A stretch of 45,863 nt of DNA from Gemmatimonadales bacterium (GTDB lineage: Bacteria > Gemmatimonadota > Gemmatimonadetes > Gemmatimonadales > GWC2-71-9). The stretch covers positions 1-45,863 of the forward strand of contig JAICWE010000021.1 of assembly GCA_025934955.1 (NCBI GenBank). Reading direction: 5' to 3'. Made by a program: the position numbers and the translations under genes. Below are positions 42,070 through 42,240 of this stretch, piece after piece. The notes under the pieces are model-generated. The model saw only the letters and a list, made by a program, of their open reading frames with translations. It ran no database searches and was not told the DNA's origin. The first letter of the stretch is position 1. Each line of letters starts with the position of its first letter.

Positions 42070-42168
42070 ATGCCGCTCCGTTTCCCGATGTGTCGCCGAA
42101 TTATGGCCATGTGTCGCTCGCACTGCGAGTGGACCGTGCTTTCGGCGTGCTCGGGAACGGCTCCGTGA
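42070..42168 (+). CDS. Met/Cys-rich leader peptide of the metY operon
   Basis: A 32-codon ORF with Met at positions 1, 7, 12 and 14 and Cys at 8, 15, 19 and 27, including two Met-Cys pairs (7-8 and 14-15, both written ATGTGTCGC with the following Arg). This is far above normal Met/Cys use and sits before methionine and sulfhydrylation genes. AGGGAG (42054-42059) lies 10 nt before ATG 42070; an in-frame ATG at 42031 would add 13 residues. The stop (42166-42168) is 27 bp before the terminator hairpin. It is probably a cis-acting attenuation peptide with no product function. No homologue is known to me. Confidence 0.65.
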
Positions 42169-42210
42169 TCGGTTAGCGGACTCCCACAGCAGCTTCGGCC
42201 CGGGCCACTC
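42114..42210 (+). promoter_or_regulatory. Alternative pairings of a transcription attenuator (protector and antiterminator)
   Basis: Region 1:2 is a hairpin TCGCTCGC (42114-42121), loop ACT, GCGAGTGG (42125-42132), 8 pairs with two G-T. Region 2 (GAGTGGACC, 42127-42135) can instead pair with region 3, the terminator 5' arm end GGGCCACTC (42202-42210), 8 pairs with one mismatch. Region 2 nearly repeats the start of region 4 (GAGTGGCCC). A ribosome held at Met14-Cys15 (42109-42114) would cover region 1 and free region 2 to block the terminator; one at the stop would cover region 2. Drawn by eye, not folded by program. Confidence 0.6.
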
Positions 42211-42240
42211 ATCGGAGTGGCCCGGGCCGTTTTCGTTTTC
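42196..42240 (+). terminator. Strong Rho-independent terminator (attenuator) upstream of metY
   Basis: A 15-bp perfect stem (42196-42210 with 42215-42229, ending CCACTC / GAGTGG), loop ATCG, then TTTTCGTTTTC (42230-42240). It lies 41 bp before the metY ATG, inside the transcript leader, so it must be conditional for the operon to be expressed. Confidence 0.92.

Follow-up and report, generated by a model that had tools for sequence, protein, structure and literature searches.

A predicted Met/Cys leader-peptide attenuator behind a SAM-II-like element in the leader of a Gemmatimonadales metY operon

What does a very short reading frame rich in methionine and cysteine codons do in front of the metY operon of a Gemmatimonadales bacterium? 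The operon lies in a stretch of 45,863 nucleotides (contig JAICWE010000021.1, the window in what follows) from a genome of 3.05 Mb in 110 contigs, an assembly that is 88% complete. Our preferred reading, to which we give a probability of roughly 0.8, is that the leader of this metY-aspartokinase-metX operon contains a ribosome-mediated transcription attenuator with a Met/Cys leader peptide, located behind a SAM-II-like riboswitch. Judged from its sequence, the stretch is with high confidence a predicted leader-peptide attenuator. The operon, in the order metY, aspartate-kinase family gene, and metX-family gene, follows 3' of the leader terminator (Table 1), and the attenuator reading is supported by the fact that metY (TIGR01326) itself makes Met and Cys precursors. 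A YajQ-family gene (41315-41818, minus strand, NF003819 above cutoff) lies divergently upstream of the leader.

Table 1. Features of the metY leader and operon, with positions counted from the first nucleotide of the window.
Feature	Position	Strand	Basis or details
Promoter-like TTGACG-17-TAAGCT	41889-41917	+	Directly 5' of the SAM-II-like element
SAM-II-like pseudoknot aptamer, variant with extra hairpin	41925-41989	+	Alignment of 9 loci
Terminator-like hairpin plus T4 (terminator 1)	41998-42029	+	Fold of -17.3 kcal/mol
Leader ORF	42070-42168	+	32 codons; SD-like GGGAG 10 nt 5' of ATG
Protector hairpin (regions 1:2)	42113-42134	+	RNA folding of the window sequence
Region 2 (antiterminator 5' side)	42127-42136	+	Pairs with 42201-42210
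Region 3 (terminator 5' arm)	42196-42210	+	Pairing and alignment evidence
Intrinsic terminator (3:4, terminator 2) with T-rich tail	42196-42239	+	Terminator scan
metY, O-acetylhomoserine (thiol)-lyase	42281-43609	+	TIGR01326 OAH_OAS_sulfhy, 660.8 bits, cutoff 495.1
Aspartate kinase family gene	43606-44685	+	Best NF005154, 179.3 bits, under cutoff 376
metX, homoserine O-acetyltransferase family	44682-45707	+	TIGR01392, 311.3 bits, under cutoff 500

The leader ORF, which is predicted to be translated, has Met at codons 1, 7, 12, and 14 and Cys at codons 8, 15, 19, and 27, with Met-Cys pairs at codons 7-8 and 14-15. An earlier, sequence-only reading of this DNA had described a 32-codon ORF with 4 Met, 4 Cys, and two Met-Cys pairs, a 27-nt gap from its stop codon to a 15-bp terminator with a T-rich tail, and a protector hairpin at 42114-42132 whose 3' arm GAGTGG (42127-42132) can pair with CCACTC (42205-42210), and each of these was recovered here. 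The best 12-codon stretch of the ORF contains 5 Met+Cys; when the 330-nt leader was dinucleotide-shuffled 100 times, no shuffle matched this score. Among all window ORFs of 8 to 100 amino acids, this score is reached by 1 of 157 on the plus strand, the leader ORF itself, and by 1 of 181 on the minus strand, an ORF at 16270. A longer version of the leader ORF from an in-frame TTG start at 41947 is not favoured, as it would cross terminator 1.

Between this ORF and metY, the first gene, sits the intrinsic terminator 2, a perfect 15-bp stem (42196-42210/42215-42229) with loop ATCG and tail TTTTCGTTTT, the single match in a terminator scan of 41820-42300 where 0.3 were expected. The protector and the competing 2:3 pairing are only moderately unusual in the window sequence alone, with equal stability of the protector in 13 of 200 shuffles and equally good 2:3 pairing in 11 of 200, and the case for the attenuator is carried by conservation rather than by the window sequence alone. 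Protector hairpins are not stabler than shuffles across either leader set described below (mean z of -0.75 in 26 phylum leaders and +0.24 in 17 Acidobacteriota leaders). The best Rfam match for the leader, RF02353 BjrC68, was rejected as a label at 25.9 bits versus a threshold of 39, and merely tracks the terminator hairpin; no T-box was found in the window at Rfam gathering, nor in 41830-42300 with E relaxed to 5.

Ribosome-mediated transcription attenuation of the trp and his type is known from Proteobacteria. The leader of the window resembles these systems in having codons for the end product in a leader ORF and a protector, an antiterminator, and an intrinsic terminator that are mutually exclusive, but differs from them in its use of both Met and Cys codons, in a stop codon well past region 2, and in the SAM-II-like switch in front. 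In the proposed mechanism, transcription would begin just 5' of the SAM-II-like element and would stop at terminator 1 when SAM is plentiful, the polymerase proceeding into the leader ORF only when SAM is low. Scarce charged Met- or Cys-tRNA would then stall the ribosome at codons 7-15, where it would cover the protector 5' arm and leave region 2 free to pair with region 3, blocking terminator 2 and allowing metY to be transcribed. With no stall the ribosome would cross regions 1 and 2 and terminator 2 would form, as it would in an untranslated leader where 1:2 folds. The gate would compute NOT SAM AND Met/Cys shortage, and readthrough is predicted to respond to starvation.

Blocking region 1 in a folding calculation had been proposed by the sequence-only reading as a check, and the outcome agrees with it. 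We folded the window sequence alone thermodynamically, as a transcript ending at the terminator loop, assuming that the footprint of the ribosome extends 14 nt past the opening base of its A-site codon. A stall with the A site at codon 7, 8, 12, 14, or 15 (Met7, Cys8, Met12, Met14, and Cys15) retains 12 bp of 2:3 and gives the antiterminator, and 2:3 is absent with no ribosome, with the A site at codon 19, or with the ribosome at the stop codon. Once the full terminator is present, 3:4 is the minimum-energy fold in all three states tested, and the switch must therefore be kinetic; this would fit, as expected, a decision made during transcription. The leader stop codon starts 34 nt beyond region 2, and a non-stalled ribosome should therefore cross regions 1 and 2 with no parking. 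The earlier description of the leader as working exactly as in trp, where the ribosome does park there, therefore goes slightly too far.

Comparison with related metY leaders, also put forward as a check in that reading, turned up Met/Cys-rich ORFs in part of the loci sampled in the phylum. A metY match was found in 84 Gemmatimonadota genomes, with about a dozen 52-55% identical matches and the truncated G201 left out; the upstream DNA of 80 metY loci was read, and 78 were long enough to be scored by the Met+Cys content of the best 12 codons of an ORF against 100 dinucleotide shuffles (loci carry our own L numbers). All 100 shuffles were beaten by 28 of the 78, or by 27 once L045 was removed as a repeat artefact (a GGTGCA tandem repeat upstream of SAM-II, with the leader anatomy absent). 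L020 fails the shuffle test, 13 of 100 being as good, and was counted on its anatomy, giving a total of 28 leaders in 78. No leader was found among 14 distant loci scored (L079-L092), of which L091 and L092 were rejected as candidates with 1 of 100 shuffles as good and the anatomy absent.

Within the family of the window, metY of this type occurs in 14 of 102 genomes, and the ORF is present in 12 of the 13 readable leaders, not in L011. Close relatives that do not have the leader ORF include L009, which keeps just the SAM-II-like element, and L011, which keeps just the terminator. Leader peptides from across the phylum include MSMCMCMCRTLPEE (L048), MCMCCMCGSPTGR (L049), MMCMGMRHMAMAMCRCSCMC (L073), and MRRCPCMCRCRCRC (L008). 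Our script assigned a terminator well in 26 of the 28 phylum leaders, where it lies 17 to 43 nt beyond the stop codon; for L010 it returned none, and for L063 the stem was wrong or weak. In the leader frame 86 of 958 codons are Met, versus 11 of 1,916 in the other two frames together, a 14-fold difference, and Cys is enriched only 2.2-fold over those frames. In the window's clade, 9 of 10 loci have an SD-like motif ahead of the leader start, versus only 2 of 18 other phylum leaders and 2 of 22 Acidobacteriota leaders.

The alternative pairing, which had likewise been singled out as something to look for in related leaders, is present and covaries with the cognate terminator. When the 35-nt segment starting at the last Met/Cys codon was paired with the terminator 5' arm of the same locus or of others (5,000 permutations), 26 phylum leaders gave a mean duplex energy of -22.7 kcal/mol for cognate versus -19.2 kcal/mol for non-cognate pairs (p = 0.0002, the permutation floor), and 17 Acidobacteriota leaders gave -18.5 versus -16.5 kcal/mol (p = 0.002). 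A 42-nt version gave p = 0.00005 (26 leaders) and p = 0.006 (19 leaders). Controls in which a spacer took the place of the terminator arm, or in which RNA further upstream was used, had no effect (p = 0.63, 0.93, 0.29, and 0.68; pooled, 0.23 and 0.98). Left out of the pairing tests were L010 (no terminator) and L063, L102, L108, and L164 (misassigned stems), with L120 and L128 also left out of the 35-nt test. An alignment of 9 loci from the window's clade shows pairing in 91.4% of 2:3 cells and two-sided changes in 3 of 9 pairs, and pairing drops to 31-61% when the partner is shifted by 1 to 3 columns; the observed values of most measures were reached by 22-23 of 500 column shuffles, and this 9-locus set alone is therefore only suggestive. 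One member, L034, changes the triple 42130/42207/42218 from T-A-T to C-G-C, keeping both 2:3 and 3:4. The parts, their conservation and covariation, and the folding outcome are in this way all present in the sequences.

Similar ORFs are also found before metY outside the phylum. We took 80 named metY loci among the matches listed, mainly from Acidobacteriota and Bacillota and with no Gemmatimonadota. All 100 shuffles were beaten by 17 of the 24 Acidobacteriota loci and, of the 56 others, by 1 (L151, Flavobacteriaceae). A second sample, 29 leaders from relatives of a single Acidobacteriota genome, has 21 that beat the shuffles, with a recurring peptide MAMCMCM-ACGPVRAALERRMR; some Acidobacteriota loci in the two samples come from the same genomes. 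In these leaders the third-position excess is weak (922, 756, and 1,095 mismatches by codon position) and Cys falls outside the top six enriched residues, and Rfam searches of 20 Acidobacteriota loci at gathering returned just tRNA and Acido-Lenti-1, nothing within the leaders. Among relatives of L151, 3 of 30 beat the shuffles (L223, which is L151 again, L230, and L232). These Flavobacteriia leaders are nearly pure Met (MMMMHMMMM) or Met/Cys; read by eye, GCTATTGCCA and TGGCAATAGC of L151 make a perfect 10-bp antiterminator, and L172 keeps similar pairing partners where the Met run is absent.

The attenuator could be real and yet respond to a single amino acid, Cys or Met, or to translation slowing down in general, a possibility that we regard as somewhat unlikely. 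Individual leaders lean this way, since L008 is nearly all Cys (CPCMCRCRCRC), L223 is nearly all Met, and a leader before metX, L271, is made of Met, Arg, and Thr with no Cys; as a matter of general knowledge, Met starvation should also hamper initiation. Every leader peptide starts with Met, and a Met-reading attenuator therefore raises the question of how an elongation stall could arise with no prior stop at initiation, to which the alternation of Met with Cys codons points as an answer. Many leaders, from two phyla, alternate in this way (MCMCM in Acidobacteriota and MCMCMC in L048), and both kinds of codon lie within the stall zone of the window that frees region 2 (codons 7-15), which argues against a single amino acid. 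Met and Cys are likely both read by the leader.

Upstream of the leader ORF lies a second control. The sequence-only reading had placed an attenuator in front of metY, where it is indeed present, but had missed a SAM-II-like element with its own terminator further upstream, and the promoter-like sequence in front of it, so that the attenuator is the second of two devices. The element comprises P1 (41925-41930/41953-41958), an extra hairpin (41959-41968), and a conserved 3' part ACCAAAGAGCTAAAGCGCC (41971-41989). In the 9-locus alignment the P1 strands, the loop UUGC, and the 3' GAGCTAAAG are kept and the sequence of the added hairpin varies, with L010 having CATTTAGA where the other loci have GATTTA. 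Core motifs of SAM-II, drawn in part from the Rfam consensus (P1, GAUUU in L1, UUGC, and 3' GCUAAA), are present in order in the 9 loci. The element is like SAM-II (RF00521, RF01726) in the order of the aptamer, its core motifs, and the terminator behind it, but the window copy has an inserted hairpin and lies under the Rfam thresholds: it matched no Rfam SAM family at E up to 5 (471-nt search) or at E up to 10, and the best family, RF01726 SAM-II, is hit in the right register at 18.3 bits in L007 and 15.9 bits in L008 (E of 1.5 and 5.8) versus a gathering cutoff of 44. We therefore call it SAM-II-like and not SAM-II. Terminator 1 is unlisted in the scan of 41820-42300, which requires 5 T in 8. 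The promoter-like sequence follows a pattern (TTGA-[CT]-N, 16-18 nt, TA-N3-T) seen in 9 of 9 variant-aptamer loci and in 14 of 18 loci tested, being absent from L020, L033, L054, and L071; a stricter consensus scan found no promoter here.

The window copy of the SAM-II-like element, below thresholds and with a hairpin inserted, might be decayed or bind another ligand, leaving the leader peptide alone to regulate metY. We consider this unlikely, as the core is kept in 9 loci while the extra hairpin sequence varies, and the variant element occurs in 8 of 102 family genomes, once per genome and always in front of metY. The SAM-II-like element of the window is predicted to bind SAM. By our own pattern, a SAM-II-like element stands upstream in 19 of the 28 leader loci, 8 of them variant and 11 canonical, 6 of the latter reaching RF00521 gathering (L012, L048, L054, L069, L073, and L074). 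The canonical pattern also occurs at 27 loci with no Met/Cys leader, and 9 leaders lack a SAM-II-like element, so that either part can be gained or lost separately; in the window the two likely act together on one transcript.

Two further observations concern canonical elements. A second conserved pseudoknot-like element lies upstream of canonical SAM-II, about 290-445 nt before metY, in 18 loci by pattern (L015-L019, L021, L024, L038, L039, L041, L043, L045, L047, L055, and L057-L060); its P1 loop holds GATTTGACGGG, followed by a hairpin with covarying arms and then CCGTCTAAGTCG and a terminator. Searches with two of the copies gave no convincing Rfam family at E up to 5, and the element is possibly another SAM-type riboswitch class. 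In L056, read by eye, a tiny ORF, MPCCRRM*, lies directly 3' of canonical SAM-II and its terminator.

Ribosome-mediated attenuation is already known as a mechanism class, and a Met/Cys leader of metY behind a SAM-II-like element is a variant of it. For the phyla with leaders of the window type, no leader-peptide system was described in the literature searched. The open-access library searched yielded neither leader-peptide attenuation in a Gemmatimonad, which is weak evidence as subscription journals lie mostly outside it, nor a SAM-II riboswitch in Gemmatimonadetes or Gemmatimonas, with the same journals mostly outside. The sequence-only reading had known of no described Met/Cys leader peptide, but a Met-rich one is in print: MetL of Streptomyces lividans is proposed as a leader before metNIQ, with two Met-Cys/Cys-Met pairs (PMC8079986). 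It too is a short ORF of Met/Cys codons (MSTTSDRTPATEATTTPGARCMCRRMCAF) before methionine genes, but it belongs to a transporter operon, is leaderless, and in the accessible text has no alternative pairing shown, the authors stating that a typical Rho-independent terminator is missing (PMC8079986). Cys leader ORFs of Actinobacteria also stand upstream of sulfur amino-acid genes, but in the parts of the 2005 paper available their Cys runs lie near the stop codon, there are no conserved terminators, and Rho is suggested (PMC1262725); cysteine leader peptides of Actinobacteria are reportedly also the subject of Canestrari 2020. A parallel in logic comes from a survey of tandem riboswitches, in whose accessible text SAM-I/T-box(Met) tandems upstream of metX and metY control these genes by the same two inputs, combined as NOT SAM AND Met shortage (PMC9481103). 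There the T-box RNA reads uncharged tRNA directly, whereas the window would use a translated leader peptide; the accessible text of the survey leaves leader peptides, uORFs, and attenuation unmentioned (PMC9481103). The SAM-II-like/leader tandem would be the translated counterpart of that gate, and two unrelated devices therefore seem to share one logic.

Similar leaders precede other genes. A covariance model, R1, built from 14 leaders of other lineages, has matches with E of 0.01 or lower in 29 of 150 phylum genomes, genome G000 not being found; having been trained on those 14 leaders, it recovers its own training loci as 7 of its best matches. We inspected 13 matches away from metY. His-rich ORFs with the same hairpin plan stand before hisG in L275 and L277, and the plan recurs with a His-rich leader ORF in L276 and with a Thr-rich one before aspartokinase in L273. 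Met-rich ORFs lie ahead of homoserine dehydrogenase in L270, of a MetX-family gene in L271, and, in L264, of a start that by eye looks aspartate-kinase-like. L267 has a Met/Cys-rich ORF ahead of threonine synthase, and no clear codon run is present in L269, where a glutamate-synthase-type gene follows. Leader codons that match the downstream pathway, as in these His, Thr, and Met cases, would be expected under attenuation.

This matching weighs against nascent-peptide arrest, in which the peptide would sense a metabolite and stall the ribosome with tRNA charging irrelevant. Acidobacteriota peptides do share residues besides Met and Cys (GPVRAALERRMR), but in the window's phylum the residues 3' of the Met/Cys run differ and track the RNA hairpin, the number and order of Met and Cys vary freely, and the codons of sister leaders follow the downstream pathway (His, Thr), which makes arrest very unlikely. 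Least credible of all is a chance ORF between a SAM-II-like riboswitch and a plain terminator with no translation-linked control, for although 27 loci have the SAM-II-like element (own pattern) with no Met/Cys leader and L009 and L011 show the loss of single parts, the shuffle test, the frame-specific Met, the cognate-specific antiterminator, and the 9 leader loci in which that pattern finds no SAM-II-like element all speak against it.

The Met/Cys attenuator of metY is probably a widespread, undescribed control class that spans, at the least, Gemmatimonadota, Acidobacteriota, and part of the Flavobacteriia. Within the phylum of the window it would be stacked behind SAM-II-type switches as a two-input gate on one transcript (SAM; Met-/Cys-tRNA charging) and would form one branch of a phylum-wide set of His, Thr, Met, and Met/Cys attenuators. 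Phyla poor in genetic tools gain in this way a set of predicted amino-acid attenuators, which also offers a route to annotating small ORFs missed by gene callers. Four of the R1 matches (L284, L265, L266, and L268) have Met/Cys-rich leaders (e.g., ACACMCMCMCACL) followed by an uncharacterised gene, about 330 amino acids long, which has no Pfam match at 1e-8 in L284, L265, and L266, L268 being a near copy of L266. It may be an unknown sulfur gene. L266 and L268 contain a further gene, which starts MRFGYWLPMFGGWLRN.
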